IMG/VR virus record: IMGVR_UViG_3300048591_000707 | Coordinates: 1 to 43,439 of that record | Reading direction: 5' to 3' (one strand) | Length of the DNA: 43,439 bases | Origin: a virus | Part shown: positions 3,782-43,439 of the stretch, piece by piece | How positions within the stretch are numbered: the stretch's first letter is position 1 | How the letters are laid out: each line of letters opens with the position of its first letter | Notes under the pieces: generated by a model | Databases searched by the model: none | Told to the model about the DNA's origin: nothing | Seen by the model: only the letters and a program-made list of their open reading frames with translations | Translations under genes and position numbers: made by a program

Positions 3782-4003
3782 ATGCCACGCTATCGAGTTA
3801 CGTTCGATCAACGCACTCCCCTGAAGGACGGCTGGCTGGTGCTGGAAGCCCACAATCCGACTGAAGGTCGCGAGTTCTGCTCCACACATCTCAGGCACTG
3901 GTCGGGCTTCTATAACGAGCTGAACAAAGTCTGCATAGACTGGGACCGCCTGTTTCCAGCAGGCTGCCTCGGGACCATCAACATCATGAAGGTGAACGGC
4001 TAA
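3782..4003 (+). CDS. Hypothetical protein (73 aa)
   Basis: The ATG at 3782 lies two bases after the previous stop with AGGAG about 7 bases upstream. The product is beta-rich, with RYRVTFDQRTPLKDGWLVLEA followed by HNPTEGREFCSTH and several aromatic residues, suggesting a compact single domain. Two Cys and two His occur, but no regular zinc motif. No family is recognised. It is the last gene before a structured leader containing a copy of the 17-bp repeat. Confidence 0.65.
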   Translation: MPRYRVTFDQRTPLKDGWLVLEAHNPTEGREFCSTHLRHWSGFYNELNKVCIDWDRLFPAGCLGTINIMKVNG

Positions 4004-4009
4004 TGTTCT

Positions 4010-4026
4010 GGGTCCGGGTGGGGCTC
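4010..4026 (+). repeat. 17-bp dispersed repeat, copy 3 (5' leader)
   Basis: Exact forward copy in the 66-bp gap before the gene at 4070. In the mRNA, GGTGGGG of the repeat can pair with CCCCACC at 4044-4050, enclosing a CCCGAGAGTCGGG hairpin, upstream of the SD AAGGAGAAA. A regulatory leader is plausible. Confidence 0.85.
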
Positions 4027-4069
4027 AGCCCGAGAGTCGGGAGACCCCACCTACCAAGGAGAAATCACA

Positions 4070-4966
4070 ATGGAAGACAACTTAGACATCTGCGCAACGT
4101 GTAACAACTCGATCGAGCCGGACGACCTTCCGGCCAACTACTGCTACCTTCCGGTCTGCGAGAAGTGCTTGCCCTACACGCTCGAAGCCCTGACGGAGGA
4201 TGCCAAGAACGAGGCGATCGCAACGGCTCGGAGGTGGCTGCTGAATTCCGCCCTCCGCACGCACAAACGGTTCGTCCGCATGGAGCGAACGGAATCGCCG
4301 GAACAGTCTGCCAGGGCGGACTCCATCCTGGGTCCGGGTGGGGCTCGCGTCGGGAGTCAGAAAAAGAAACACTCGATTTGGGTCGAGGGCTACGAAGCCG
4401 AACTCGCCAAACTGCACAGCGAGCGTATGGAGGCGCTGGAAAGCCGAATCACCACGCTGGGGGTGATCGCATCACCCGATGGTGGCTCGCCGGAACAGGC
4501 TGCCCGCGACCGGCTGGCGCTGATCGGGTTTTCGGAAACTGAACGGCGCATCGCCGCCCTCAAAGCCGAACTCGCCGCCGCGAAGGAGCGGGAGGCGGCG
4601 CTGGCGGCGGCGCTGAAGAAGGCGCGCGACCTTGCCGGAACTGCATCCTGTTACGAAGTAGACGCGGCGCTATCGACAGAGGCGGGATCGGACGTATTCG
4701 GGAGTCCCGGCATTGCGAGTAAGTCTCTTGTGAGGAGAGCCAAGAACGCCTGGGCCAAATTCGATGCGGTTATCGACGCCGACCCCGCTGCCATCCTCGC
4801 CGCCGTCCGACGCGAGGCCAGGCGGGAGGCGCTGGAGGGGCTGAAGGCAAAAAGTACGCCCGCCATGTTTGACGTCGCGGGTGTATGGATGGAGGTGGTT
4901 CTGGCTGACGACCTTGACGCCGCCCTCGCCGCCCTCGACGCGGAGGAGGAAAAGCAGAATGGCTGA
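4070..4966 (+). CDS. Zinc-finger plus coiled-coil protein (298 aa)
   Basis: Start follows AAGGAGAAATCACA. The N-terminus carries two CxxC knuckles (CATC at 8-11; CEKC at 30-33) spaced like a zinc ribbon. Residues about 150-190 are Ala/Glu/Lys-rich and coiled-coil-like. The C-terminus has two Asp/Ala-rich helical segments (VIDADPAAILAAVRREARREA; DDLDAALAALDAEEE). Copy 4 of the 17-bp repeat lies in frame, giving GPGGA near residue 89 in a region that looks like a linker. SPEQSAR and SPEQAAR occur about 65 residues apart, hinting at an internal duplication. Function unknown; a nucleic-acid-binding regulator is possible. Confidence 0.75.
   Translation: MEDNLDICATCNNSIEPDDLPANYCYLPVCEKCLPYTLEALTEDAKNEAIATARRWLLNSALRTHKRFVRMERTESPEQSARADSILGPGGARVGSQKKKHSIWVEGYEAELAKLHSERMEALESRITTLGVIASPDGGSPEQAARDRLALIGFSETERRIAALKAELAAAKEREAALAAALKKARDLAGTASCYEVDAALSTEAGSDVFGSPGIASKSLVRRAKNAWAKFDAVIDADPAAILAAVRREARREALEGLKAKSTPAMFDVAGVWMEVVLADDLDAALAALDAEEEKQNG
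4330..4346 (+). repeat. 17-bp dispersed repeat, copy 4 (coding, GPGGA)
   Basis: Exact forward copy within the gene at 4070-4966, read as GPGGA. Upstream flank GGGCGGACTCCATCCT is shared with copies 2 and 12. Confidence 0.9.
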
Positions 4967-5249
4967 CCCCATCCTCGAAACCATGCTGAAAGACCCGGAG
5001 TTTCGCCGGAAGTACGTGGACGAAAAGGCACGCATGGACGTGGCGCAACTTTTCGCGGATGTGATGGCGGAGCGCGGATGGGACAACGCGCAACTGTCCG
5101 AAGCGACGGGTTCGCCCAACACGTACCACATCATCCAACTCATGCAGGGCAACTTCAATCTGACGTTTACGGAGGTCGCGCAGATGCTTGACCGGCTCGA
5201 CATGGATCTGGTCGTCACAGCGCGGAAGAGGGAGGTTCCGAATGCCTGA
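4959..5249 (+). CDS. XRE-type helix-turn-helix protein (96 aa)
   Basis: The ATG at 4959 overlaps the previous gene by 8 bases and has GGAGGAGG upstream. Residues about 30-80 read as a Cro/C1-type fold: AELFADVMAERG-like first helix, NAQLSEATGSPNTYHIIQLM as the helix-turn-helix, then NLTFTEVAQMLDRLDMDLVV, the usual final helices of XRE antitoxins and regulators. No toxin-like partner was seen. It could bind the 27-bp palindromes or the CCGTATTTCAT promoter motif. That link is inference only. Confidence 0.7.
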   Translation: MADPILETMLKDPEFRRKYVDEKARMDVAQLFADVMAERGWDNAQLSEATGSPNTYHIIQLMQGNFNLTFTEVAQMLDRLDMDLVVTARKREVPNA

Positions 5250-6469: not shown

Positions 6470-6475
6470 AAGGTG

Positions 6476-6505
6476 TTGACTTCTCGCCGTATTTCATGGG
6501 ACAAT
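6476..6505 (+). promoter_or_regulatory. Promoter sharing the CCGTATTTCAT spacer
   Basis: TTGACT (6476-6481), an 18-bp spacer and GACAAT (6500-6505). The spacer is nearly identical to that of the promoter at 1987-2016. The leader is very short and runs straight into AGGAGAAACC and the ATG at 6522. Confidence 0.65.
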
Positions 6506-6521
6506 AGGAATAGGAGAAACC

Positions 6522-8159: not shown

Positions 8160-8440
8160 CAGCGATCTGCTCCCTGCACGTTACCTTTCCGAGGATCATC
8201 AAGTGCACGAAGTACGAAGACGTTAAGCTCGGACTGGTGCTGCTCACGCTGATCTCCAATAACGGGATGGAGTTCAAGCTGTTCTTCTCCGACTTCGAAG
8301 TGGCACGGCAGATTCATCAGGCTTTCGAGTTGATGGAACTGCGACAGCTGGCTGCCGAGAAGAAGGAGCTGACGATCTCTGAAGTCCCGAGTGAGCCCCA
8401 CCCGGACCCACAGATGGAGGCTGCCGATGTCGAAGCGTAA
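8150..8440 (+). CDS. Hypothetical protein (96 aa), GTG start
   Basis: The GTG at 8150 has GGAGG about 6 bases upstream. The protein opens with beta-like segments (SVTAICSLHVTFPRIIKC; LGLVLLTLISNNGMEFKLFF) and then a charged helix ending LRQLAAEKKELT. The C-terminus contains copy 5 of the 17-bp repeat in the opposite sense, giving SEPHPDPQ. The repeat lies just before the SD of the next gene. Function unknown. Confidence 0.6.
   Translation: MSVTAICSLHVTFPRIIKCTKYEDVKLGLVLLTLISNNGMEFKLFFSDFEVARQIHQAFELMELRQLAAEKKELTISEVPSEPHPDPQMEAADVEA
8393..8409 (-). repeat. 17-bp dispersed repeat, copy 5 (coding, opposite sense)
   Basis: Reverse-sense exact copy at the end of the gene at 8150-8440, 17 bp before the next start at 8427. 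It is the only coding copy whose mRNA carries the GAGCCCC sense. Confidence 0.9.
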
Positions 8441-12978: not shown

Positions 12979-15332
12979 GAATCCACGGCTCGCCGCAGCC
13001 GCGCATCCTCATTGTCAATGACTGTGTAGGTGCGCCAGAAGAAGAACGGAGGGTTCCCCTGGCGGGAGCCCCCCACTTCGAACTCGAACGAATGAAGCAG
13101 GCGGCTGGCATCTCCAACAGCGATGTTGCCACAACCGTCTGCTCCTCTATCAGAGGTCCGTCCTACGAGCTCACTCCGTGGATCGACTTCCCCTCCAAAA
13201 AAACCTGCCCGCCAGCATCCTACGTTGCAGCCCACAACGCTTACATTCACCCCTCACTACTCTACGGATTACACGAGCTGTGGCAGCAGATCGAGTACCT
13301 CAAGCCCAACGTCGTTGTTACCCTGGGTGAGGAGGCAACATGGCTCCTGACTGGGCGGCGTGGGATAGGCGACCTGCGCGGATCAGTGTTGGAAAGCAAG
13401 CGCCCCTCATGCATGGGTCCGGGTGGGGCTCACTCGCCCGTCAAAGTCATTCCGACCTATCACCCTCGCAAGGTCCTCCGCAACTACCCTTGGCGTTGGG
13501 ATGTCATCCGAGATCTCACACGCGCCAATCAAGAATCACTCTTCCCACAGATCCGTAAACCTGACTGGCTCTTCCACGTCGGGCCGTCGTTCGATCAGGC
13601 TTGGAGCTTTATCGAGAACTTGGGCGAAGAAGTCACAGCTGACATCGAGACTCGCAATCGCCAGATCACTTGTATCGGCTTGGGCGAGAACAAACGCGAG
13701 GCGATGTGCCTCCCGATCACTGCGCAGGGCGGATCGTTCTGGCCTACGCTCGACGAAGAGTTTGAGATGATCCGTCACCTGATGAAGAATCTCAAGCAGC
13801 GTAAGGTGGTTGGACAGAACTTCTTGTACGATGCCTTCTACCTAGCTTGGTTGTGGGGAGGTTACATCTACGCTGACTTCGATACCTTGGTTGCGCAGCA
13901 CGTTCTGCTTCCAGGATTCCCGAAGTCGCTCGACTATCTCGCCTCGTACTACTGCGACTACTACACCTTCTGGAAACACGACAGCAAGGAATGGTCAGGT
14001 TACATCAATGACGTGGACTTGTGGATCTACAACTGCGAAGACATCGTTTATACAAACGAGTGCAGGCAGAACCTTGAAGTGTCGCTGCGGCAGGCCGGAC
14101 TCACAAAACAGTTCCGACAGCTGATGCGCCAGTTCGAGCCGTGCCTTCGGATGATGTCTCGCGGAATCAACTCGACAAATGAAGCTCGCCAGCGTATGTC
14201 CAAAGAAATCGCTGAGGCGATGCAACGCAAGCAGACCTTTGTTGACTTCGTGTTCGACCAGCCTGTGAAGATGCGTGGTCCTCACCTGTCAAAGCTCTTC
14301 TACGAAGACCTCAAGCTTCCGGTCGTCAAGAGTCGCACCACCGGACAGCCTACCACCGATGACGACGCCTTGGACAAGATCGCTGCCAAGACGCCGCTCG
14401 TCATGCCTATTTGTAAGCGAGTGCAGTCTTACAGAACGCTCGGCATTTTGCGCTCGAACTTCCTCGAAAGCGAAACCCCGAACGGTCGCTTCTACTGCGG
14501 AATCAAACAGGCGGGAGCCAGGACCTTCCGTTTCGCCAGCTCCAAGAATCCGATGGGGATGGGTACGAACTTACAGAACGTACCCAACTTACAGGATGAT
14601 GAGGAGGGAGCAGATCCTGACATTCCAAACTTGCGTAAGCTTTTCTTTCCAGACCCCGGCTTCACGCTGGCAGAGTTCGACCTTAGTAAGGCGGACCTTC
14701 GGGTGGTGGTGTGGCAGTCCGGCGAGGAAGAACTGAAGGAAGCGCTTCGTGCGGGAGTCAACATCTACAAGGAGCACGGCACTCGCATCACCGGGTTGCC
14801 TTACCGACGTGCCAAGAGCTTGCTGCATGGTACGAACTACGGCGGCAAACCTGCCGGAATGTCCACACGTCTCGGCGTCACGCAGGCACTTGTCCGATCC
14901 GCCCAGGAGAAATGGTTCGGCGCTTACCCTGGCATCCGCCGATGGCAGCAACGAGTCGAAGACGAACTGATGACTCGGCGGACCACGACAAACAAGTTCG
15001 GGTTCCGTATCTTCTGGGGCGATCGCCTCGAAGGGCTGTTGCCTGAAGCTTTGGCTTGGGACCCGCAGTCCACCGTCGCCCTCGTAATCAATGAGGTTCT
15101 CTTTTGGTTTTATGAGACAATCGAGAAGCAGGAGGACAAAGGTCAGATCCTCATGCAGATTCACGATTCAATCTTAACTCAGATCCGTGACGAATATGTA
15201 GAGGAGGTTATCCCCAGAACACTCGAAGCCTTCAATCAAGTGGTTGTTCCCTTCGACGACCCGCTCATCATCCCAGGTGAGTGTAAATATGGGAAGGGTT
15301 CTTGGGCAGACTTGCACCCCTGGGAGGGCTGA
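12975..15332 (+). CDS. DNA polymerase, family A, with N-terminal UDG-like domain
   Basis: A 785-residue replicative polymerase. Residues about 10-190 resemble family 4/5 uracil-DNA glycosylases (VVVTLGEEATWLLTG; then VIPTYHPRKVLRNYPWRWD). Residues about 215-380 are a DEDD proofreading exonuclease (ADIETRN; VVGQNFLYDAFYLAW). The palm carries motif A DLSKADLR (D569), motif B around RRAKSLLHGTNYGG (about 611-624) and motif C IHDS (H730-D731-S732), where most family A enzymes have HDE. Copy 6 of the 17-bp repeat is in frame near residue 147 (GPGGA), inside the UDG-like domain before its HP motif. Whether the glycosylase is active is unknown. Confidence 0.92.
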   Translation: MRIHGSPQPRILIVNDCVGAPEEERRVPLAGAPHFELERMKQAAGISNSDVATTVCSSIRGPSYELTPWIDFPSKKTCPPASYVAAHNAYIHPSLLYGLHELWQQIEYLKPNVVVTLGEEATWLLTGRRGIGDLRGSVLESKRPSCMGPGGAHSPVKVIPTYHPRKVLRNYPWRWDVIRDLTRANQESLFPQIRKPDWLFHVGPSFDQAWSFIENLGEEVTADIETRNRQITCIGLGENKREAMCLPITAQGGSFWPTLDEEFEMIRHLMKNLKQRKVVGQNFLYDAFYLAWLWGGYIYADFDTLVAQHVLLPGFPKSLDYLASYYCDYYTFWKHDSKEWSGYINDVDLWIYNCEDIVYTNECRQNLEVSLRQAGLTKQFRQLMRQFEPCLRMMSRGINSTNEARQRMSKEIAEAMQRKQTFVDFVFDQPVKMRGPHLSKLFYEDLKLPVVKSRTTGQPTTDDDALDKIAAKTPLVMPICKRVQSYRTLGILRSNFLESETPNGRFYCGIKQAGARTFRFASSKNPMGMGTNLQNVPNLQDDEEGADPDIPNLRKLFFPDPGFTLAEFDLSKADLRVVVWQSGEEELKEALRAGVNIYKEHGTRITGLPYRRAKSLLHGTNYGGKPAGMSTRLGVTQALVRSAQEKWFGAYPGIRRWQQRVEDELMTRRTTTNKFGFRIFWGDRLEGLLPEALAWDPQSTVALVINEVLFWFYETIEKQEDKGQILMQIHDSILTQIRDEYVEEVIPRTLEAFNQVVVPFDDPLIIPGECKYGKGSWADLHPWEG
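13415..13431 (+). repeat. 17-bp dispersed repeat, copy 6 (coding, GPGGA)
   Basis: Exact forward copy inside the UDG-like domain of the polymerase gene, read GPGGA. It falls between two segments that look contiguous in related domains (GDLRGSVLES and VIPTYHP). Confidence 0.9.
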
Positions 15333-19600: not shown

Positions 19601-22544
19601 TGTGGCCTATCGTGTAATAGTGCGTAAACTCGTGCAGTATCGTATCGACAAGCTCGCGATGAAGAATCTGACTTTGAGTGTAGTTAAGAGCCTCACCGAG
19701 GAGATTGACGCCTATATAAAACCTGCCTTTGATAGGTCGATGTACTCCATGCTGGTGCCCTCCGCCAGCTTCAAAGGCAAAACCTCCGTAATGCTGCGGA
19801 TCGGTGTCAGTTATTGTACGCAGGATAATCGGATGATAGTGGAAAGCTTCCTTGAGTCTTTGCACAAAAGCGCTGTTGGGATCAGCCAGTACATTCCAGA
19901 CATACTGACTAATTCTCTCAAGTTGTTGCCGAACGTGTATGATCTGAGCTCTGTTGTAGTATGCCTGCTCACTAGGACTAAGTGTTGCCTGGGGCCGCTC
20001 ATGTAAAACTCGAGTGCCGTTGGGCAAGGTGCCCATACGCCCTTCCAAACGGTAGATGAAAGGGATAAAGTTACCAAGAGTCTCAAACTGCTTCTGATAA
20101 ATGAAGTACTCAAGGATAGCGTCATGCAGCCCATACCTGCGTATGAACGGGTCCACTCCGTCCAAGCGTCGCTCTGTTATAAGCATCAGTTCCAGCACAG
20201 TTGCAACGCTGTCAGCCTTCTCCAGTAGGATGCGCTGGAACTCATCATAATAAGAACCATCTGCGAGTTGCTTACGAATGAAAGCAGCGAAATGCGGGTG
20301 TGTATCCGAAGGGTGAACAGTGACGCCATCATCGCTTATTTCAAGAATCACCTCTCCACCTAAGAAGTCTTTCGCAAATCGTTTTTCCTCAGTCTGGGTC
20401 CAGCCCTCAGCCTGCAGCAACTGTGTGTCGGCATCCAGCTGCTCCGGCTGCTTGTTGAGATGCTTCAACAAGTCGGCAAGGATCTCCTCCGGCTTGGCGT
20501 TGTGAAAAGCGATCTTCGTCGGAAGCTCGGTTACGCGATCGGGGAGTACAGCTGTCCATACACCAGTAATAGGGTTGTAGCCGAAACGCTGGATGGCTTG
20601 CGGATTATCAGGATCAGTGCGGTCAGGAATCTCAATGCGGTTGAACGCCTGCGAGTAAGTTGCGCCGTCGGTCCGACCAGGAACAGGCCGGAAGTAATCC
20701 TTCTGCTGGCCGGACACCTCCGGACTGAAGGTGTACTGGTCTTGCCCTGGTAGCGTCCTGATGATACCCTGATCCAAGAGCTGATCCAGGGGCGCATCAG
20801 ACGGCATCTGGAAAATGGTACGGATGCCGGACCCGGAATGAGTCTCAAACAAAGCCGGAGCACCTACGTTGTTGACAACCTGCTCACGGAAGCGCTGACG
20901 AAGATCTGTAGGAGCGAGGTTCTTGTGCGGGTTGACGATGTTGGAGATGGCGAAGTGGCCAGCCTGCATAGCTTCGCCAAGTGTAGAGTAGGCCCCGACG
21001 AAGGGAGTGGGAGAATCCGGCAGAGGGATCTCGAGACGGAAGACGCCCTGGGTGGGATCACCAATAAAGGGATCGGTGATTTCAGTGATCTCAGCCAAGG
21101 ACGTCTCGCCGTCTGCATCGAAGAAGATAGCGATCGGCTCGCCGGGAACTGTGTCGTAATCAGGGATTGTCCAGTTCGGATCTTCGATGATGTCGAACTG
21201 GCCCATCGGATGGGTTTCGAGCTGGGCGGGCGGCTTCAGAGCTTGAGGAAGCTGATCGAGGAGCTGACCGGAATCGAGTTGAGGAACTGCGCTGTCGTCG
21301 ACATGAGGGATGTCAGGCTTAGGATTCTGGGGACTGACCAGAGGCTCGATCAAGTTCGGATCGGGAGTAGGTGCAGGGGTGTTGACCTCGGGAGTGGTTT
21401 CGGGAGAGGGAGCTACTACGGGAGCTGCGGGATCAACAGGAGCGCCCGGATCGGCGGGCTGAGCCCCACCCGGACCCAACGGATCAGTGGTGGCTGCAGC
21501 CGCCCGACGCTGCTCATTTTCAATCATACGACGCTGTAGTGGATGGGTCACAAGCCGCCCGACTCCTGCGATGCTGCCGCCCGCGATTGCGCCTTGGACC
21601 CCGGAGTTGAGTATCCGGCTGGCGATTGTCCCAGGTGTATGAGCGATGCCCGCGTACTTCTCGAGCAGGATGTCGATACCTTCCTGCCCGGATTCCGTCG
21701 AAGCCTCGCCGCGTGCGCCCTTCCACCAAGCGGAACCTGAGGCTTTCACTGTGTCCAGAGCGCGATGCCAGCCTGTGGTGTTAAGCTCCTTCTCGAATTG
21801 TGCTGCTAGAGGTTTCGGGAGATCCTTGGGCACGAACCGCTTGACCAGTCCGCCAGCCGTCATGATGGTCTTGACGCCAACCACATCGAGCAGCGCTTTG
21901 GTGTGACCGCCGACCTCAGCAAGGCGGGCCGCTTCCTCTTTCTCGATCCCTTGCTCGAGGAGGTTCTGGTAGGACTCCCCTTTGTTCAGGATGTAGGAAG
22001 CTGCATAACCGCCAGCAGGTCCGCCCAACGCATAGGCTGTTCCCGTCACACCAAGCTGTGGCAGGTTCTGAACCGTAGCTCCGATGATCAGGTCCGCAAC
22101 GCTGGAAGGGCTTTTCCAGTCGACGTTCTCAAGCGATAGCTCCGTGTCGGGCGGGCGTTCGTAAGCTCCCTTGTGCCGAAGCTGTCCCATCCAATCTTCC
22201 ATGTAAGAGCCACCGGGAGAAGCTGGCTCCATACCGTAGCCGATGCTGGAGTAGAGCTGTGCCACGCCCTGATCCCAGAACTGCTTAACCCGACCGAAGG
22301 CCCCGGAGTAGTCCTCCTGCACACGCGGCTTGAGCATTGGTGTGTTCGGATCGAGTTCCGGCGTGGGCGGGGCAGGAGGAGCAGATGGAGCAGAGGACTG
22401 CTGCCGAAGAAAGGACTCAAAACTGGGCGGACTTTGAGACGGAGTAGTAGGTGTTGAGGGAACAACAGACTGAACAGGCGCCATCGAGGGGGAAGGAGCG
22501 CCGCGCTGCTGGCGAAGGAATTCCTCAAAACTGGGTTGACTCAT
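16506..22544 (-). CDS. Giant internal virion protein (2012 aa) with HEFTH motif
   Basis: Last gene of the leftward operon; its ATG overlaps the previous stop (ATGA). The N-terminus has two copies of a short motif (FEEFLRQQ at about 6-13; FESFLRQQ at about 42-49) in Pro/Ser-rich linkers. GATVQNLPQLGVTGTAYALG is a hydrophobic Gly-rich stretch. HEFTH (residues 971-975) is an HExxH zinc-peptidase-type motif in a predicted helix (VDTILHEFTHYYTIGH). The C-terminal third includes IFKMFQQGYLYYAMTNKGGW, resembling domains of phage large polyvalent proteins. It is probably ejected with the DNA, opening the cell envelope or modifying host targets. GPGGA from repeat copy 7 is near residue 357. Confidence 0.8.
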   Translation of the reverse strand: MSQPSFEEFLRQQRGAPSPSMAPVQSVVPSTPTTPSQSPPSFESFLRQQSSAPSAPPAPPTPELDPNTPMLKPRVQEDYSGAFGRVKQFWDQGVAQLYSSIGYGMEPASPGGSYMEDWMGQLRHKGAYERPPDTELSLENVDWKSPSSVADLIIGATVQNLPQLGVTGTAYALGGPAGGYAASYILNKGESYQNLLEQGIEKEEAARLAEVGGHTKALLDVVGVKTIMTAGGLVKRFVPKDLPKPLAAQFEKELNTTGWHRALDTVKASGSAWWKGARGEASTESGQEGIDILLEKYAGIAHTPGTIASRILNSGVQGAIAGGSIAGVGRLVTHPLQRRMIENEQRRAAAATTDPLGPGGAQPADPGAPVDPAAPVVAPSPETTPEVNTPAPTPDPNLIEPLVSPQNPKPDIPHVDDSAVPQLDSGQLLDQLPQALKPPAQLETHPMGQFDIIEDPNWTIPDYDTVPGEPIAIFFDADGETSLAEITEITDPFIGDPTQGVFRLEIPLPDSPTPFVGAYSTLGEAMQAGHFAISNIVNPHKNLAPTDLRQRFREQVVNNVGAPALFETHSGSGIRTIFQMPSDAPLDQLLDQGIIRTLPGQDQYTFSPEVSGQQKDYFRPVPGRTDGATYSQAFNRIEIPDRTDPDNPQAIQRFGYNPITGVWTAVLPDRVTELPTKIAFHNAKPEEILADLLKHLNKQPEQLDADTQLLQAEGWTQTEEKRFAKDFLGGEVILEISDDGVTVHPSDTHPHFAAFIRKQLADGSYYDEFQRILLEKADSVATVLELMLITERRLDGVDPFIRRYGLHDAILEYFIYQKQFETLGNFIPFIYRLEGRMGTLPNGTRVLHERPQATLSPSEQAYYNRAQIIHVRQQLERISQYVWNVLADPNSAFVQRLKEAFHYHPIILRTITDTDPQHYGGFAFEAGGGHQHGVHRPIKGRFYIGVNLLGEALNYTQSQILHRELVDTILHEFTHYYTIGHKWTRLQLEGYLQEYFYQDPAFLQMRQELLSLVRDPNNHKVTHRQLNFITGAKLTLDDLSYDTYLGPIDNVEPVGITPSFFATPEDMEMPSNSLEYQQHVSSVISQVTYTPPTSTSTAPTPAETALLKQYGRLARQLRGGPKDPERLKKFRVAQGWIKDYFRQTKEFMTLLQLADQFKNLLPMQVFSKGMEQFSAVKTKVLLIGMPTAEKWMRLSHVKAAKLAAFILRVSESSFKLERRLTAAEMDTIATRLGLKAFPELIDMAADVDASFQQGLERMRTALIEQARRIFISEEARNQGVTTTPAFEVNRDQINKEFARMAQRNYFPFYRFGQWALIVQYTKGTKADKTRRGMTERFETFRTKTERDRRFEELTRELDGKPLVLKKRYISDQEAPFMSFSPTLFDMMQSKLEMTPTQKAQLRQLLYTLSPGQGFVKSMLKKKGTPGFSEDALRSFSRYFQHLANHVARLEVGYILEDSIKAMEREANAAIEGDHPSMLAAKMRQFYARVMNPGNELPAVRGGMFMLAFWGVPKQFFVNLTQTPLFTYPYLAKRLGDLQTTKSMMKMSRYLRKTWVEGSNLPDAHKRAFNRAVSEEFMNESAATEMAGIAEAPAIARNQWANRAYYYGRVLGRYGIAHFTVSEEYNRRLSFLSAFDAAMAKGMDENTAYNFAKDTVIWTQFEYASWNRPELMRGKKSVLFIFKMFQQGYLYYAMTNKGGWRFWALQLAAVGMMGLPGAEHAKNLLELLGTWLREFLGVENPKLDLEKELRDMLLAFVDDPDLFIHGMSRESLGLSAMADLVGLPFPKMNINSSLSMGSFIPMVDPMLEGLTGGAGGRNTVFKMITEAAGAVGSTSLNVAQALIENGDAEARVMAAVPPFLKNLGKAHQYLNSGYGKDGRGRPLVRFDSNDPEQFGEIVLQAMGMQPVRIARFREADWAAAEHVAYYLTRRSLLLNKFANAIGDPAAQKQASEDLAKYNKTAPPELKLMPRQVRQSIEDRKRNSILREKGLPPTQRYWNLYRSFHRAYGNEPQE
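16573..16588 (+). terminator. Weak terminator-like hairpin at the end of the rightward operon
   Basis: GGGGG-AAG-CCCC followed by TTTT within the last codons of the ATPase gene. The stem is short, but there is no other terminator candidate where the two operons converge. Confidence 0.35.
21461..21477 (-). repeat. 17-bp dispersed repeat, copy 7 (coding, GPGGA)
   Basis: Exact copy, forward sense on the minus strand, in a Pro/Ala-rich linker of the giant virion protein (LGPGGAQPADPG). Confidence 0.9.
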
Positions 22545-23662
22545 TTTCTTTCCTGGTTCATCTTGATCAGCAAGTCTTCAGCCTCGTCATACGAAGGCGG
22601 CGTGGCGTTGGGGTACAACCGCTTGTACTCCTCGATCTTCGCTTCCACATCACGGCGGGGAGGTGCCATCATCTTGCGGAAAGCTCGTGACATCGCCGGG
22701 GCAGTCTCCCGAAGAATTTCGGCTTCCTCCTCCTTGGTAATGAGGCCCATCATTCGACTGCTCTGAATCGTCTCGGTGTAAGAGCCGAGTCTTTGAGCAA
22801 CGCTGCTCCAGTCCTGCGGAGTCATCGGGCGGTCGGGCGACTCATTCTTGATCTGCTCGTTAATCCGCTTGATGTCAGCATAGGTCTTGGCTATCGACGC
22901 CGCAGCTTCCTTCTCTTGCAGCTTCAAGCGATCCTTCTGGAGTTGAAGTTCCTTATCGCGATAAGTCTGCGTTCTACCGAATTCAGTTCTACGCTGTTTA
23001 AGTTCCTCCTCCTGAAGCTTTAATCGAGCTTTGAACTGAGCCACATCATTGTCCATGCGCTCGATTTCGAGGTTCAGCTTCTCATTGTTCAGTTGACTGA
23101 GAACCCCAAACTGAGTCTCGTCCTGCTTAAGCTTATCCTTCTGAATCGTGCGACCTTCCCGCGCATCCTCAATGCCAGCTTCGATGCGCTGCTGCTCAAG
23201 GCCAAGGCGGGTCTCTTCCCGCTTATCAGCAGCCTGTTGGCGCTTGAGTTGAGCAGCTTCCCGTTCGCGCTCAGCCACCATCGCGGAGTGCAGGGCCAAG
23301 GTATTGTAACCGCTGGCTACGGACTGTGCCATCCGTCCCCATCCGGTCTGGCCGGGCTGTAAGGGCTGGCCCATCTGCGCACCAGCGGCGAGCAGGAACT
23401 GGGTGAAGCGCGGATCTTTGACGGCTTCCATAAGTCTCGACTGAGCCCCACCCGGACCCACGGAGGTAGGCACAGGTGTTGCTCCCGGAGGCTGATTCGG
23501 GTCCGGCATGGGAGCTGCCACAGGCGGCGGCGAGGGAATGAAGGGCGGCGTCCCGCCCGGCTGCCCGATGTTGGGATACACAGGCACAGGCGGATACGGA
23601 TAGGCCCTGCCGGGATACTGCGCTCTCGGGATTCGCAAGGGAGAATTGGGTCGCTGGGGCAT
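22541..23662 (-). CDS. Coiled-coil ejection-type virion protein (373 aa)
   Basis: The N-terminal 80 residues are Pro-rich (PPFIPSPPPVAAPMPDP) and include GPGGA from repeat copy 8. Residues about 120-280 are a long charged coiled coil (AEREREAAQLKRQQAADKRE; LKLQEEELKQRRTEF), and the C-terminus is helical. This layout is typical of internal core or ejection proteins in short-tailed phages. The SD is the AAAGGA within operator copy 3 directly upstream. Its stop overlaps the start of the giant protein. Confidence 0.7.
   Translation of the reverse strand: MPQRPNSPLRIPRAQYPGRAYPYPPVPVYPNIGQPGGTPPFIPSPPPVAAPMPDPNQPPGATPVPTSVGPGGAQSRLMEAVKDPRFTQFLLAAGAQMGQPLQPGQTGWGRMAQSVASGYNTLALHSAMVAEREREAAQLKRQQAADKREETRLGLEQQRIEAGIEDAREGRTIQKDKLKQDETQFGVLSQLNNEKLNLEIERMDNDVAQFKARLKLQEEELKQRRTEFGRTQTYRDKELQLQKDRLKLQEKEAAASIAKTYADIKRINEQIKNESPDRPMTPQDWSSVAQRLGSYTETIQSSRMMGLITKEEEAEILRETAPAMSRAFRKMMAPPRRDVEAKIEEYKRLYPNATPPSYDEAEDLLIKMNQERK
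23443..23459 (-). repeat. 17-bp dispersed repeat, copy 8 (coding, GPGGA)
   Basis: Exact copy read GPGGA at the junction between the Pro-rich N-terminus and the helical part of the coiled-coil protein. Confidence 0.9.
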
Positions 23663-23701: not shown

Positions 23702-24640
23702 TTAACGTGCTGGCGGCTGAAAGAGCGCAGCCAAAATCTCACCAAGGGAAAGCTGTTGCCGCTGTCGCTGCGCGTTCTGGAACAGCGAGGTCTTCATGTT
23801 CGGATCTCCCACAACCGGGGCCGGACCAGCGGCGAGCGGTGCACCACCTGCCCCGGACAAGGCTGCTCCAAGTGCCGGTAGCCCACCACCCCCACCTGAC
23901 GACGGCGGCGTTTCAGGTGTTGCAGGCGGCTGCGCGGGCGGAAGCGCGGGCGGCGGAATGACTGGAATCGGGATCTCCGGCTCAGGCATCGGCGGTTCCA
24001 CAGGCGGAGGCGGAGGTGGACCAGGAGGCGGTGGCTGGCCAGGAACACCCGGTTCAGCAGGCGGAGCCACAACATCAATCGGGAAGGTTGGCACTCCAGT
24101 TGTCGGCGGATAAATCACTGTTCCGGGCGGAAGCCAAGGTAACTGTGGCGCTTCTGGTACTTCAGCTTCCGGAGGAGGCGGCTCAGTCGGCATTGGAGCA
24201 ACCACATCAATCGGAAACGTGGGAGTCTCGCCGGGCCAGGGCGGAAGCGGAAGTGCTCCCGGGAATCCACCCGAAGGATCACTGCGCGGAGCACCTGCGG
24301 AAGGTCCGCCCAGAGAAGTACCGGGACGTGTTGATCCCTCTCCTCGATAGGTCGGATCACCCCCAGGCGGTGTGGGCGGATCAACCTCGCCAGGAATCGG
24401 CATCGGAGCCTCGACGGGCGGCGGCATCGGTCCCGGCCAGGGCCACGGAATCGCTCCCGGCACAGGTAGCCCGATCGAGGCCCAGTCCCACCAATCCCAC
24501 CAACCAGGCTGCGCACCGGGAGGCGGAGCCAAGAAACCTCCACCCCCACCTTGCGCGCCCATACCGGGACCAGTTGACATGGGCGGGATGAAGTCCCACC
24601 AGCTGTCGGGATCAATGTACTGAGGTGATGAATTAGGCAT
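23702..24640 (-). CDS. Pro/Gly-rich virion-associated protein (312 aa)
   Basis: Almost entirely low complexity: about a third Pro, with Gly, Ala and Trp, and runs such as PPPPGPPPPPPVEPP. The nine-residue block PTFPIDVVA occurs twice, about 50 residues apart. Only the last 40 residues (MKTSLFQNAQRQRQQLSLGE, then ILAALF) look folded. It probably acts as an extended linker or ejection protein inside the capsid, like its neighbours. The start is set by ATAAAGAG directly upstream, next to repeat copy 9. Base composition is skewed by the Pro codons. Confidence 0.7.
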   Translation of the reverse strand: MPNSSPQYIDPDSWWDFIPPMSTGPGMGAQGGGGGFLAPPPGAQPGWWDWWDWASIGLPVPGAIPWPWPGPMPPPVEAPMPIPGEVDPPTPPGGDPTYRGEGSTRPGTSLGGPSAGAPRSDPSGGFPGALPLPPWPGETPTFPIDVVAPMPTEPPPPEAEVPEAPQLPWLPPGTVIYPPTTGVPTFPIDVVAPPAEPGVPGQPPPPGPPPPPPVEPPMPEPEIPIPVIPPPALPPAQPPATPETPPSSGGGGGLPALGAALSGAGGAPLAAGPAPVVGDPNMKTSLFQNAQRQRQQLSLGEILAALFQPPAR

Positions 24641-24652
24641 CTCTTTATCCTT

Positions 24653-24669
24653 GGGTCCGGGTGGGGCTC
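24653..24669 (+). repeat. 17-bp dispersed repeat, copy 9 (intergenic)
   Basis: Exact forward copy on the + strand in the 37-bp gap upstream of the Pro-rich gene. The leftward mRNA therefore carries the GAGCCCC sense, unlike most other late copies. Confidence 0.9.
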
Positions 24670-35404: not shown

Positions 35405-35916
35405 GCAGGTACTCCAAGCATCCGTTGGGATTGCAGGAACCCGAGAACTTCCTGCAACCGATCTGCGCCATTACGACGCGCGGGCTGAGCCCCACCCGGA
35501 CCCATGAATGAGGTCCGCCCTCCCGCAGTCGATGGCGCGACAAAAGCACTTGGCGGGGCGGTCAACGCTTGAGCGAGATCGGACGAACCCCCGAAGGCGG
35601 ACAGCTGCTCCGGCGACGGCGGCACATAACCTTGCGGGGCAGGAACCGGATTCCCCTGATCGGTGTACTGCATCTGCCCATTGAGAAGCTGCGTCCAGAT
35701 ATTCGCATTGGGAGTGATGGAGCCGTCCGGCTGCTGGTACTGGAAGTGAACGTTTTGCGTCCACGGATCAAGCTCCCGGACCAGAAACGGACTATACGAG
35801 CCGTCGAACAGTCCCTGGGAGTTGATCAGCCCCATCAACTCGGGTGGGATTCCATGATTGGGTCCCAGGCTCGATAACCAGTCTGCGCTCGAGATTCCTG
35901 TGGGTAGTGTACTCAT
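35401..35916 (-). CDS. Hypothetical structural protein, overlaps glycosyltransferase gene (171 aa)
   Basis: The start at 35916 is set by GGGAGATGAGGAAA upstream. It overlaps the preceding glycosyltransferase gene by 125 bp in another frame. The protein is Pro/Gln/Ser-rich (QYQQPDGSITPNANIWTQLL; PVPAPQGYVPPSPEQLSAFG), with repeat copy 10 giving GPGGA, and a helical C-terminus (RLQEVLGFLQSQRMLG). Low-complexity character suggests a virion linker. The alternative start at 35835 lacks an SD. Confidence 0.6.
   Translation of the reverse strand: MSTLPTGISSADWLSSLGPNHGIPPELMGLINSQGLFDGSYSPFLVRELDPWTQNVHFQYQQPDGSITPNANIWTQLLNGQMQYTDQGNPVPAPQGYVPPSPEQLSAFGGSSDLAQALTAPPSAFVAPSTAGGRTSFMGPGGAQPARRNGADRLQEVLGFLQSQRMLGVPA
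35487..35503 (-). repeat. 17-bp dispersed repeat, copy 10 (coding, GPGGA)
   Basis: Exact copy read GPGGA near the C-terminus of the gene at 35401-35916. It is followed by ATGAATGAGGTCCGCCC, the flank type shared with copies 12 and 13. Confidence 0.9.
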
Positions 35917-38635: not shown

Positions 38636-38930
38636 TTTCTTCCTCACGTTCCAGATTTAGCTGCATCTGAATCTGCTCATTGAGCTCTTCCAGAAGCAGC
38701 TGTGGCATACGCAAAACCATCTGCAAGGTTGCGATCTCGTTCATCAGTGCTGCAACCTCGAAACAGCTGTCAAATGACCGCGCTTGCTGATTGAAGATGG
38801 CAAACCTGCGCGCACGCTCCTGAGCTTCGAGTTGCTCACAAAGCAACTTAAAGCCAGGGCTAAGCAACAGGTCCGAGAGAACCTGCTTGCGGTGGTACAG
38901 GCCCTCCAGAAGATCCGGGGATTGCGGCAT
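38628..38930 (-). CDS. Small helical head-module protein (100 aa)
   Basis: The ATG at 38930 lies within the end of the portal gene (71-bp overlap). It is almost wholly helical and Leu/Glu/Gln-rich (FKLLCEQLEAQERARRFAIF; MNEIATLQMVLRMPQLLLEE). It overlaps the scaffold start by 8 bp. Probably a head assembly factor or minor capsid protein; no family recognised. Confidence 0.65.
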   Translation of the reverse strand: MPQSPDLLEGLYHRKQVLSDLLLSPGFKLLCEQLEAQERARRFAIFNQQARSFDSCFEVAALMNEIATLQMVLRMPQLLLEELNEQIQMQLNLEREEENA

Positions 38931-40785
38931 TACTTGCAGGCACCATCCTTCCTTGCTCGATTTGGTTCTGAAGCATCTGATCGGGAGCAACTTCGATCCG
39001 AAACTGTGTGATGTTCTTCAGCCCGGCCAACTGCGCCATCCAACTGAAGATCCCGGCGATGTCGTAGCCCTGACCAATCTGGGGAATCGTAGCCATCCCT
39101 GTTAGAATCTCTTTCCACAGATTGGCTTGGGCGAAGCGGTCAATCGGGAGCGTACCATCCACAGGCACGAAGTCGTAAAAGCCTGCCAGCTCCTCAGGAC
39201 CGATCGACAGGAAACCCTGCTTTTGCTGCAGCAGGTCCCCGGCGATCTTATACATCTGAGGCTCGTCATAAAACTGCTGCGAATTTTGAAGCAGGATCTG
39301 AGACATCGGCGACCAGCCCAAGCCAGAGTTGTACTCGCAGAAAGTCTTAAGTCTGTTGACACCGAAGCTGGAGGATGTCCGAACCTCCGTTGCCGTCTTG
39401 CGTCCACCAGCGTTAACCAGCCCCATCAGGTTATCGTTGATACCTGTCACGCGGTAGAACATATCGAGCAGGGCGGCAATGTTCCTGAAATTCTGCTGCG
39501 TCACGTTGACCACAGGAAGCTGCTTCAGGACCTGATCAAGGTTGGCGCCGTAGGCGGCTGGCTTCAGGCGGATTAGGCGACCCGCTCCACCGCGCTCGAG
39601 ATCCGCTGTCTCCACCCGCGAAGGATCGTAAAGGATCTGATCGTTGAGAGACTTGCGGACGTTGAAGAAGTGGGAGTTGAAGAGCCAATCAAGGGTGTCC
39701 GACAACGGCTCGACGATCTCCAGCATCCCTCGAGAGTTATTCGAGTAGCCGTCCACTTCGTAAAGCTGCAGGCAGAAGGGAAACTGGTTGTGGATGCAGG
39801 TCTGCGGACGGCAGCCGATGATGACATCCTCGTTCGCCATCGTGATGACCCACTTCTCAGGATAGGTGGACTCACCCAGACCCCACTCATTGGGGATCAG
39901 CTCCCACGTCATCTCGATCAGCGAATACATATCGTTCCTCATGTCTGAGGAAGGAGCAGGCAGCGAGTCCTCGTTGGGAATCACCAGCTCACGATGTGGA
40001 CGAATCCTGTTGTACTGAGTGTTGTTGTCCTTCTTACGGACCTGCTCGAGATTAAAGTAGCCTTCCGACGAAGCCTTGAGCGTGTTCCACCCGATCTCGA
40101 CAAAGCGGCCACAAAACTCCCCGCTCTGGAACGACGCCAGCGACACACGCGGGTCGTAGTAGAAGTCATGCGGGCGGATATTGAAAAGCCTGTTCCCGTT
40201 GTAGGAGAGGGCACGCTGGTACTTACGAACCTTGCGCTTCTTCCCGCCAGGGATATTGAACCCAAGCAACGAGAAGGACTCATCCTCCTCGACGATCTGG
40301 GAGGTGGTCGAATACTCTTCGCACCAATAGGCTCCGACCACCCCGTAGCCGTACCGCCCAGCATCGAGCAACCACTGGTAGAGCGGCACCAACATACCGC
40401 CAACCCGAAGCTGGTAGTCGATGATCGCTTCTACCGCCTGAACCTTGTGGGAGGGCTCACCATGCCGAGCGGTGAATTGAAGAACAGGATCGCGAGCGAG
40501 AAAAACGGAAGTCCAATAGGTATGCGCTGTGAGCAGGAGCGCGTAACTGAAAGGCAGCGTGACTGTCGTGTACTCAACCGTGCCGCCCTTGCGTCGAGCG
40601 CTCCGTACACGGTCGTCCTCGGTCTTCGTGTGGTACGCGCGATAAAGCTTGTCAGCCTTGTCCCACTGCTTCGCCCGATCAGTCAGGTTGTTGTGCGACA
40701 GACGGAAGCGGGCAAGGACAGCTTTCTTGATCTTCTCGTGCCCTTCCGAGCCGTACTTGAGTTCCTTGTGCAGGCTTACAGACAT
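38860..40785 (-). CDS. Portal protein (641 aa)
   Basis: Residues 40-110 (DKADKLYRAYHTKTEDDRVR; PFSYALLLTAHTYWTSVFLA) and LLDAGRYGYGVVGAYWCEEY match the N-terminal part of P22/SU10-type portals. NRLFNIRPHDFYYDPRV, GRKTATEVRTSSSFGVNRLK and the long C-terminal helical region fit the stem and crown. The length is usual for these portals. The start shares TAATG with the stop of a short leader frame at 40785-40862, suggesting translational coupling. Confidence 0.85.
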   Translation of the reverse strand: MSVSLHKELKYGSEGHEKIKKAVLARFRLSHNNLTDRAKQWDKADKLYRAYHTKTEDDRVRSARRKGGTVEYTTVTLPFSYALLLTAHTYWTSVFLARDPVLQFTARHGEPSHKVQAVEAIIDYQLRVGGMLVPLYQWLLDAGRYGYGVVGAYWCEEYSTTSQIVEEDESFSLLGFNIPGGKKRKVRKYQRALSYNGNRLFNIRPHDFYYDPRVSLASFQSGEFCGRFVEIGWNTLKASSEGYFNLEQVRKKDNNTQYNRIRPHRELVIPNEDSLPAPSSDMRNDMYSLIEMTWELIPNEWGLGESTYPEKWVITMANEDVIIGCRPQTCIHNQFPFCLQLYEVDGYSNNSRGMLEIVEPLSDTLDWLFNSHFFNVRKSLNDQILYDPSRVETADLERGGAGRLIRLKPAAYGANLDQVLKQLPVVNVTQQNFRNIAALLDMFYRVTGINDNLMGLVNAGGRKTATEVRTSSSFGVNRLKTFCEYNSGLGWSPMSQILLQNSQQFYDEPQMYKIAGDLLQQKQGFLSIGPEELAGFYDFVPVDGTLPIDRFAQANLWKEILTGMATIPQIGQGYDIAGIFSWMAQLAGLKNITQFRIEVAPDQMLQNQIEQGRMVPASNAAIPGSSGGPVPPQAGSLGPVA

Positions 40786-40862
40786 TATGTTTTCACCTCA
40801 CAAAAGAACTTGACAACTTGGTTGACACCGGATATACTAATACTAGCCCCACCCGGACCCAT
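40785..40862 (-). CDS. Possible leader peptide coupled to the portal gene (25 aa)
   Basis: ATG at 40862 follows AGGAGAAACC by four bases and ends in TAATG, overlapping the portal start. It encodes MGPGGASISISGVNQVVKFF plus five residues. It includes repeat copy 11 as GPGGA. A leader that feeds ribosomes to the portal start is plausible because the portal's own SD (GAGG) is weak and distant. The same DNA is read in the opposite direction as the putative antisense RNA. Confidence 0.45.
   Translation of the reverse strand: MGPGGASISISGVNQVVKFFCEVKT
40810..40838 (+). promoter_or_regulatory. Consensus sigma70 promoter antisense to the late operon
   Basis: TTGACA (40810-40815), a 17-bp spacer and TATACT (40833-40838): six of six and five of six consensus bases at ideal spacing. 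It points rightward, opposite to the late genes, and no rightward gene follows. Confidence 0.75.
40844..40860 (-). repeat. 17-bp dispersed repeat, copy 11 (one mismatch)
   Basis: TAGCCCCACCCGGACCC differs from the consensus at the first base. On the minus strand it encodes GPGGA in the leader peptide; on the plus strand it forms the predicted 5' end of the small RNA. Confidence 0.85.
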
Positions 40863-40926
40863 GGATGGTTTCTCCTGGGTTGGAGCAGACCCGGTAGCAG
40901 CGATGTTACCGGGTTTGCTTTTTCTG
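40845..40926 (+). ncRNA. Putative antisense small RNA, about 80 nt
   Basis: A perfect-looking promoter (40810-40838) and an intrinsic terminator (40889-40926) bracket about 80 nt with no rightward reading frame. The predicted 5' end is AGCCCCACCCGGACCC, complementary to GGGTCCGGGTGGGGCT of the 17-bp repeat in mRNAs. Bases 40865-40876 (ATGGTTTCTCCT) are complementary to AGGAGAAACCAT, the SD region of several phage genes and of the portal leader on the opposite strand. CTCC-TGGGTT-GGAG forms a small hairpin before the terminator stem. Transcription and pairing are untested. Confidence 0.6.
40889..40926 (+). terminator. Intrinsic terminator of the antisense RNA
   Basis: ACCCGGTA (40889-40896) and TACCGGGT (40907-40914) give a perfect 8-bp stem with a 10-nt loop, followed by TTGCTTTTT. 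The T tract lies only on the + strand side, so it acts rightward. Confidence 0.8.
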
Positions 40927-40927
40927 G

Positions 40928-40954
40928 CCGTATTGTGATCGGATTCAAATACGG
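40928..40954. promoter_or_regulatory. 27-bp palindromic operator, copy 5
   Basis: CCGTA-N17-TACGG directly after the small RNA terminator, in the gap between terminase large subunit and portal genes. The arms are TATTGTGATC and GATTCAAATA, near-complementary around a central GG. Confidence 0.65.
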
Positions 40955-40969
40955 CGGGAATTACGGGCT

Positions 40970-40986
40970 GAGCCCCACCCGGACCC
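40970..40986 (-). repeat. 17-bp dispersed repeat, copy 12
   Basis: Exact copy 17 bp past the terminase large subunit stop, preceded by CGGGCT and followed by AGGATGAAGTCCGCCC, the longest flank consensus of the family. Confidence 0.9.
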
Positions 40987-41002
40987 AGGATGAAGTCCGC
41001 CC

Positions 41003-42520
41003 TCATGGAGCCACCATCCAGTCCATGGACAGAGGCTCGTAGACGGGCTTCATCACATCCGCCGAACCGAAGCTATTCACACCCGCCGCCTCATCCAGTG
41101 CCATCGCCACCGCGTCCAGCTCGTCATCGTGAGCCACGTTCGGGTAAGCAATGAACTGCTCCTGGAAGGTGGTCATCGTTGGATCAATGAACAGGTTGCC
41201 GGAGGATGCAAGGCCGGAGAAAGCCTGCTGGATTCGAATGGCCTTTTTGCGGTTGTCAGGCGGACTGTTCACAAGGAAGAACACTCCGCGCTTCTTCATC
41301 TCCTGCTCAATCAGCCACTTCAGCGTCCGTTGGTAGGCCACGCCCTCCACTCGGACGGACATTGGTTGCCAGCGGCGGATCATCCTGAAAAGCGTGGTAA
41401 TCGTCCACTCGGGTGTGTGGCCTTTGGAGCTGGCGATCTCGAGAACAAAGCGACGGGAGCCGTGCACGCCGATCGCTGCGATGACTTCGGAGTCTTTCTT
41501 CCGCAGTCCGCCCTGGATCTCGCGTTCGGAAGGCGGCGGAGTCGGGTCGATCCCGATGTAGACTGCCATCCCCTCAGGTAGAATGTCGTAGTGCTGGAGC
41601 CACTCGGAGCGGAACAGTGAGGTCTCCGGCGAGGTAATCCGGCACTCCATCTCACGAAGCCAGAGCGAAAGGTGGTTCCGCCTGATGTGGGCCTCTTTGT
41701 CCGCCAAGAGCGTCTCGGTGGACCATCGGGTAGGCCAGGCGGACTCGCCGTCTGGAGTGAAACAGGGATAGGTCCGAGCCGCCCATTGCGGGTCCTTGAG
41801 GCAAAGGTTGAGCAGATCTTCTTCCTGCAAAGGAGTCTGAAGTAAGGCCATCAAGGCTGCGGGCGACTCGGAAACTGGTGCCATGCTTTTCTCGAGCGCA
41901 CCGAAGAAAAGCTCGGCCATCTTTCTACGCTGGTCAGGGGTGCCAGTGTTCTCCTCGTCGCAGGGGTCGTCCACGACGATAAGGTCCGGGCGGAAGTCCT
42001 CGATGTTGAGGCCTCGAATCTGCCCAGTGATACCGACAGCCACAACGGAGATCTCGCGGTTGTAGATCCCATGCTGGATCTTGATAAACTCCTCGGACCA
42101 CTTGCTACCCTTGGAGAGCTTGAAGATCGAAGCCCACAGCTTGTTGAACTCGACCTGCTTCTTGAGCCATTCGATGCTCTTGATCGAGTGGTCCTGCGAG
42201 TTCGAGACAAACATGATCGTGTTGCTGATCCCGTAGGCGATGCGCTTGGAGGTAAAGGCGCGGAGGAGTGTGGTCTTGGCTCCACCTCGGAAAACAGACA
42301 AAGCCGCCCGGTGATGGCGGCGATCCTCGAGGACATTCCAGAGGTCTTTGTGGAAAGGTGCTCCGTCTTGGCGGAAGGCTCGGGGAAAGAACGTGCGACT
42401 GTAGAGCTGACCGTCTACGGCACAAAGGTTTACGAGCTCGCCTATCTTAACTTCGTCGCCACGACCTCCGGGCTGAGCCCCACCCGGACCCACGGATAAA
42501 GGTCCGCCCAACTCGATCAT
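41003..42520 (-). CDS. terL: Terminase large subunit
   Basis: 505-residue packaging motor and nuclease. Walker A-like RGGAKTT (78-84) and Walker B LIVVDDP (about 180-186) define the ATPase. The RNase H-like nuclease shows YIGIDPT, RVEGVAYQ and HDDELDAVAMAL, giving the usual acidic residues. The N-terminal 24 residues include GPGGA from repeat copy 13, before the conserved region, and look like an added linker. The start overlaps the small subunit stop (ATGA). Confidence 0.95.
   Translation of the reverse strand: MIELGGPLSVGPGGAQPGGRGDEVKIGELVNLCAVDGQLYSRTFFPRAFRQDGAPFHKDLWNVLEDRRHHRAALSVFRGGAKTTLLRAFTSKRIAYGISNTIMFVSNSQDHSIKSIEWLKKQVEFNKLWASIFKLSKGSKWSEEFIKIQHGIYNREISVVAVGITGQIRGLNIEDFRPDLIVVDDPCDEENTGTPDQRRKMAELFFGALEKSMAPVSESPAALMALLQTPLQEEDLLNLCLKDPQWAARTYPCFTPDGESAWPTRWSTETLLADKEAHIRRNHLSLWLREMECRITSPETSLFRSEWLQHYDILPEGMAVYIGIDPTPPPSEREIQGGLRKKDSEVIAAIGVHGSRRFVLEIASSKGHTPEWTITTLFRMIRRWQPMSVRVEGVAYQRTLKWLIEQEMKKRGVFFLVNSPPDNRKKAIRIQQAFSGLASSGNLFIDPTMTTFQEQFIAYPNVAHDDELDAVAMALDEAAGVNSFGSADVMKPVYEPLSMDWMVAP
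42475..42491 (-). repeat. 17-bp dispersed repeat, copy 13 (coding, GPGGA)
   Basis: Exact copy read GPGGA about 10 codons into the terminase large subunit. Flanks are CCGGGCT before and ACGGATAAAGGTCCGCCC after, on the + strand. Confidence 0.9.
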
Positions 42521-43312: not shown

Positions 43313-43439
43313 GGGGGGAGCCGCCGGGTGTTACCGAGTTATGTTACCGATGGTCAGACCCAAAACACCCTACAGCTATGGGGTTTCAATCACCTTCCAC
43401 CCGATAGACCATCAATCATCTGGCGCGCCGTGGGGATTC
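43313..43439. repeat. Direct terminal repeat, right copy (circular assembly overlap)
   Basis: Identical to bases 1-127; see the left copy. It should be removed before circular analysis. Confidence 0.9.

Follow-up and report, generated by a model that had tools for sequence, protein, structure and literature searches.

Small antisense RNAs of bacteriophages are already known. According to the accounts cited here, the OOP RNA of phage lambda (pO-oop-tO) is 77 nt long, has its own promoter and intrinsic terminator and lies antisense within an operon (PMC5869508, PMC12197685), and the sar RNA of P22, of 68/69 nt, is an antisense RNA that pairs with a phage mRNA and blocks translation initiation (PMC12197685). 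Dispersed exact repeats, for their part, are on record in several phage groups without known function. Cluster A mycobacteriophages are described as carrying dispersed asymmetric stoperators (PMC9283540), Cluster O phages as harbouring an invariant, dispersed 17-bp repeat whose function is unknown, in more than 30 copies of which about one third fall in genes (PMC4351075), and Cluster K phages as having Start-Associated Sequences (SAS), conserved short repeats scattered in the genome, again of unknown function (PMC3203893). In these accounts, no Cluster A, K or O repeat is said to form the start of a small RNA.

Here I describe a phage locus in which a copy of a dispersed repeat forms the 5' end of a predicted small antisense RNA. 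This coincidence offers a concrete and cheap test of whether such repeats are pairing sites, operators, or neither. The unit resembles OOP in having its own promoter, an intrinsic terminator and a similar length, all predicted here from sequence, and differs from it in that OOP overlaps the 3' end of cII. As expected of an antisense RNA of the OOP/sar type, its promoter and terminator are spaced for 50-250 nt and it lies opposite phage genes, here a leftward block, the transcription of which is assumed. The sar RNA differs in having a single described target (ant) and a role in lysogeny; in the phage analysed here, the scanned ORFs included no recognisable lysogeny module.

Results and discussion

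The genome and its terminase-portal spacer

The window is the whole length of the IMG/VR virus record IMGVR_UViG_3300048591_000707, positions 1-43,439. It carries an exact 127-bp direct terminal repeat (1-127 = 43313-43439), so that the 43,439-nt stretch is probably a complete genome. On its left side, rightward genes include those for an exonuclease, a Sak4-like annealing protein, a ParB/methyltransferase, a UDG-DNA polymerase A and a primase, and on its right side the structural genes (terminase, portal, major head protein) run leftward. The scanned ORFs, many of which are without annotation, included no recognisable integrase or immunity repressor; a weak regulator match (phrog_1373) lies at 4959-5249. 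The unit described below is located between two of the structural genes:

41003-42520, leftward: terminase
38860-40785, leftward: portal, with an SU10-type domain
40786-41002, no strand assigned: 217-bp terminase-portal spacer, which holds the whole unit and is absent from the nearest relative

A compact promoter-terminator unit

The initial annotation had read, on the + strand of this spacer, a TTGACA-N17-TATACT promoter, a perfect 8-bp terminator stem with a T tract, and no rightward gene between them. All three observations stand, and the following features were delimited:

40810-40838, + strand: sigma-70-type promoter TTGACA-N17-TATACT, matching 11/12 consensus positions, with optimal spacing
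40845 to ~40924, + strand: predicted small RNA of ~80 nt, from A40845 as +1 to an end in the T run, as given by the promoter-terminator geometry
40884-40923, + strand: intrinsic terminator with a 16-bp stem, a GCGA loop and a T run, -27.8 kcal/mol

The promoter consists of TTGACA at 40810-40815, a 17-bp spacer and TATACT at 40833-40838, followed by AATACT and then by A40845, at the usual +1 distance, 7 nt past the -10 element; a genome-wide scan found a single other 11/12 promoter, at 1987+. The terminator is stronger than had been claimed. Its perfect 8-bp stem is formed by ACCCGGTA (40889-40896) and TACCGGGT (40907-40914), and when G-U pairs are counted the stem grows to 16 bp with a GCGA tetraloop (40884-40919), after which TTTTCT follows. 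Its energy is the lowest among all terminator-like hairpins on both strands of the whole window, and the fold of 40887-40925 has a z of -6.05; a simple terminator scan did not list it. The + strand between the two signals, which are 45 bp apart, holds shadow ORFs only. The sole small frame that starts inside the RNA, with ATG 40861, runs past the terminator before it reaches a stop, and a rightward protein was therefore rejected.

For comparison with chance, a unit was defined as a promoter of at least 11/12 and a terminator of at most -20 kcal/mol at the same distance, with dinucleotide-shuffled genomes as the null. One such unit occurred in 6,326 shuffled genomes versus one in the real genome, which puts the joint signal of promoter and terminator at about 1.6e-4 per genome. 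The promoter-terminator observation is thus real and well above chance, and a compact small-RNA unit at 40810-40924 is well supported by the sequence. From these signals I infer that the unit is transcribed. Its predicted RNA folds with an MFE of -41.9 (z -5.2), and nt 1-8 are largely free, being 81-99% unpaired in the computed ensemble. It has no match to a known RNA family at the Rfam gathering score. CRISPR-like or guide-RNA readings were rejected: the scanned ORFs gave no recognisable guide-RNA nuclease, and such an RNA would be directed at the phage itself.

It is conceivable that there is no RNA gene here at all, and that the signals are chance or decayed ones in a recently acquired spacer, or that the spacer encodes a protein. 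The frame concerned is the following:

40785-41006, - strand: 73-aa open frame that crosses the spacer and overlaps the gene on either side

In favour of such a reading, the spacer is specific to this phage, and the 73-aa frame stays open, reaches into both neighbours and has a codon score above 98% of out-of-frame windows. However, 98% of true in-frame windows score higher, the start of the frame has no good Shine-Dalgarno sequence, and searches found no homologues of it; chance signals are at odds with the shuffling result. I regard this reading as very improbable. As the frame crosses the spacer, an untranslated leader is nevertheless not certain.

Relatives of the phage

In the nearest relative (L001), with a terminase 59% and a portal 56% identical, only a few bases separate these two genes and the 217-bp spacer is absent. 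In most other relatives terminase and portal abut or overlap, as they do in Microcystis phage Mel-JY34. No relative of the spacer was found in phages, viral contigs or 26 related contigs; a match in Pf-WMP4 is weak (E 0.06), is confined to one site within a peptidase gene and is attributed to chance. Since the spacer was found in no other genome searched, it is most simply seen as acquired by the phage analysed here. The initial annotation had suggested a search of related phages for a conserved promoter and terminator, and had named their loss in close relatives as evidence against the RNA. A scan of 1.1 Mb of related loci yielded no antisense unit, even with a promoter of at least 10/12 and a terminator of at most -15 accepted, and none of the relatives searched has the unit; formally this amounts to the loss in question, and it shows that the unit is phage-specific and lacks the support of conservation, not that transcription is absent.

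One relative has a dispersed element of its own. In contig G009 (of L013) the 12-mer CTTCCCCCCCTC occurs in 19 exact copies on both strands, mostly with unrelated flanks, some of them just before start codons and one inside a terminator at 4530+. By eye, no promoter-seed-terminator unit surrounds these G009 copies.

Predicted antisense action on the terminase-portal leader

The reading that I tentatively favour, plausible if not quite probable on the sequence evidence, is that of an antisense RNA of the OOP/Sar kind, specific to this phage, which would act in cis on the terminase-portal leader (probably) and in trans through two repeated seeds (possibly). The features that bear on both parts are these:

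40785-40862, - strand: 25-aa leader ORF MGPGGASISISGVNQVVKFFCEVKT, of uncertain coding status, opposite the 5' part of the RNA
40866-40876, + strand: RNA nt 22-32, TGGTTTCTCCT, the perfect complement of the ribosome binding site (RBS) AGGAGAAACCA
40845-40861, + strand: RNA nt 1-17, identical to the dispersed repeat AGCCCCACCCGGACCCA, of which the genome has 13 exact copies

An RNA of about 80 nt had been placed opposite the portal leader. The length and strand hold; the position is better described as opposite the terminase-portal spacer, some 60-140 nt upstream of the portal start. With the portal ATG at 40785 and the RNA start at 40845, the portal's own RBS is uncovered. What the RNA does cover is the RBS of the 25-aa ORF, which has its ATG at 40862, AGGAGAAACCA at 40876-40866 and a stop that overlaps the portal start (TAATG). 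An effect in cis on portal expression, as first suggested, is possible.

Under the favoured reading, host sigma-70 RNA polymerase would make the ~80-nt RNA opposite the late operon, mainly when late leftward transcription is low, and the strong intrinsic terminator would end it. In cis, the RNA could pair over its full length with the terminase-portal mRNA and mask the RBS of the 25-aa ORF, whose end overlaps the portal start, and the outcome would be less portal synthesis or an invitation to cleavage by RNase III.

Alternatively, the RNA may act in cis only, dampening the terminase-portal leader, with the anti-RBS segment being no more than the opposite of the standard RBS of the 25-aa ORF and the repeat a passive element. 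Indeed AGGAGAAA is a common RBS of this phage; on the late strand it precedes, by 9 nt, the ATG of a frame that ends in overlap with the portal start. The anti-RBS segment is equally well explained by an ordinary RBS of the leader ORF. Moreover, palindrome, repeat copy and the same RBS likewise stand together upstream of the early gene at 2086. However, this leaves the start of the repeat exactly at +1 without explanation, and I consider it unlikely.

The dispersed repeat and possible action in trans

The repeat was first noticed by self-comparison of the genome DNA. Apart from the copy at 40845, its exact copies are:

40971-40987, + strand: second repeat copy, in direct orientation, 126 bp from the first
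42476-42492, + strand: antisense to the terminase 5' end, a possible pairing site
35488-35504, + strand: antisense to a 334-aa gene, with a 19-nt match to the RNA
23444-23460, + strand: antisense to a 373-aa gene
21462-21478, + strand: antisense to a 2012-aa gene
13414-13430, - strand: antisense to the UDG-DNA polymerase gene, with a 19-nt match to the RNA, in an in-frame insertion
4329-4345, - strand: antisense to a 298-aa early gene
4009-4025, - strand: in the 5' leader of the gene at 4070
1918-1934, - strand: left control region
1782-1798, + strand: left control region, inverted relative to 1918
8394-8410, + strand: same sense as the overlapping rightward frames
24652-24668, - strand: shortly before the gene at 24640 and in the sense of its mRNA

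The copies are both intergenic and inside genes, and no copy with 1-3 mismatches is present in the genome. The copy at 40845 starts precisely at the predicted +1; the base before the repeat is G in 12/12 other copies and T solely here. To my knowledge, no dispersed repeat is known at the 5' end of OOP. Nucleotides 1-17 of the RNA exactly match the 12 other sites, the majority of which are antisense to the overlapping gene, and they can therefore pair with the G-rich strand of each of these copies; in most of them the G-rich strand is that of the mRNA. The predicted RNA could thus pair with many phage messages. Most in-gene copies lie within coding regions, away from translation starts. Those with the G-rich strand coding always specify GPGGA in one and the same frame, and the copy in the UDG-polymerase gene belongs to an in-frame insertion relative to the relatives, as in a dispersing DNA element; these features count against the favoured reading. 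An origin as a host-genome element was rejected, the repeat having five single matches in unrelated genomes and three in viral contigs, about the level of chance.

The second segment, nt 22-32, is the complement of AGGAGAAACCA, which serves as the RBS, at 2073, 3585, 6512 and 7853, of four early genes, at 2086, 3597, 6522 and 7863, and, with one mismatch, of the gene at 4070. AGGAGAAACCA is one of just two overlapping 11-mers common to at least three gene-start windows and the sole one common to four; elsewhere in the genome it occurs only once, opposite the predicted RNA.

The largely unpaired 5' end and the two repeated seeds suggest that the RNA may act in trans on the phage's own transcripts. 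Less certainly than in cis, nt 1-17 could form 17-19 nt of pairing with the G-rich repeat copies in several phage mRNAs, and nt 22-32 could form 11-12 nt of pairing with the shared RBS of four early genes. Action in trans, which the initial annotation had also raised, gains support from the sequence, in the 17-nt repeat seed and in the 11-12-nt match to the early RBS; yet the duplex energies of the whole RNA against all gene starts are not clearly better than those of shuffled RNAs, for which reason it is put forward as a hypothesis. The pairing itself, like transcription, is deduced from sequence complementarity. Were it to occur in trans, the phage would regulate its own genes via a repeated antisense seed. 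A far-reaching version, which I consider quite improbable, would make this one small RNA the centre of an RNA regulon in a lytic-type phage, coordinating the early-to-late switch by RNA pairing; its 5' 17 nt would be matched by perfectly complementary sites, placed in frame, in about ten of the phage's own mRNAs and its second segment would block the RBS that early genes share.

The repeat may instead be a DNA site for a phage protein, operator- or stoperator-like, in which case the copy at +1 would be an operator and RNA pairing incidental. Several observations fit: the repeat is asymmetric and invariant over 17 bp, it is found in 13 places, 10/13 copies point the same way with respect to the direction in which their arm is transcribed (a statistically weak bias), and one copy overlaps a promoter start. 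Cluster A stoperators (PMC9283540) and the 17-bp repeats of Cluster O (PMC4351075), as described there, are precedents for dispersed sites. The likeness to the stoperators of the L5/Bxb1 type lies in short asymmetric sites spread over the genome, one of them at a promoter. However, stoperators are bound by an immunity repressor, and here many sites are inside genes; the ORFs scanned yielded neither an integrase nor an immunity repressor, the weak phrog_1373 match being the only regulator hit. Protein-bound DNA sites also usually tolerate some mismatches, in contrast to the zero copies with 1-3 mismatches found here. I therefore judge a DNA site to be somewhat unlikely. AGCCCCACCCGGACCCA likewise resembles the Cluster O repeats and Cluster K SAS in being a short conserved repeat scattered through a phage genome, and is unlike them in that, in the published descriptions, Cluster O repeats are palindromic and Cluster K SAS are located at gene starts and contain RBS-like sequence.

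Other repeated elements

Another repeated element lies next to the unit:

40927-40955, no strand assigned: 29-bp palindrome that follows the terminator directly and belongs to a set of five related copies

The five related 29-bp palindromes, at 1864, 9117, 23668, 34381 and 40927, have a consensus of approximately ACCGTANTTTGATCGGATCAAANTACGGT. Three are directly upstream of gene starts, one is in the left control region and one is just past the 40884-40923 terminator; an operator or a 5' UTR element is possible. Two promoter-like stretches, 1983-2019 and 6472-6508, share TTGACTTCT..CCGTATTTCATG, and each is followed by a gene start with AGGAGAAACCA. In the left control region, the inverted repeat copies and their flanks (1769-1799 and 1917-1947) form a 31-nt, 94% inverted repeat with a predicted very stable fold. 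The copy at 4009, finally, is located within a stable 5' leader hairpin (4003-4085) of the gene at 4070, in which GGTGGGG of the repeat pairs with a downstream CCCCACC, and antisense pairing could open this hairpin.
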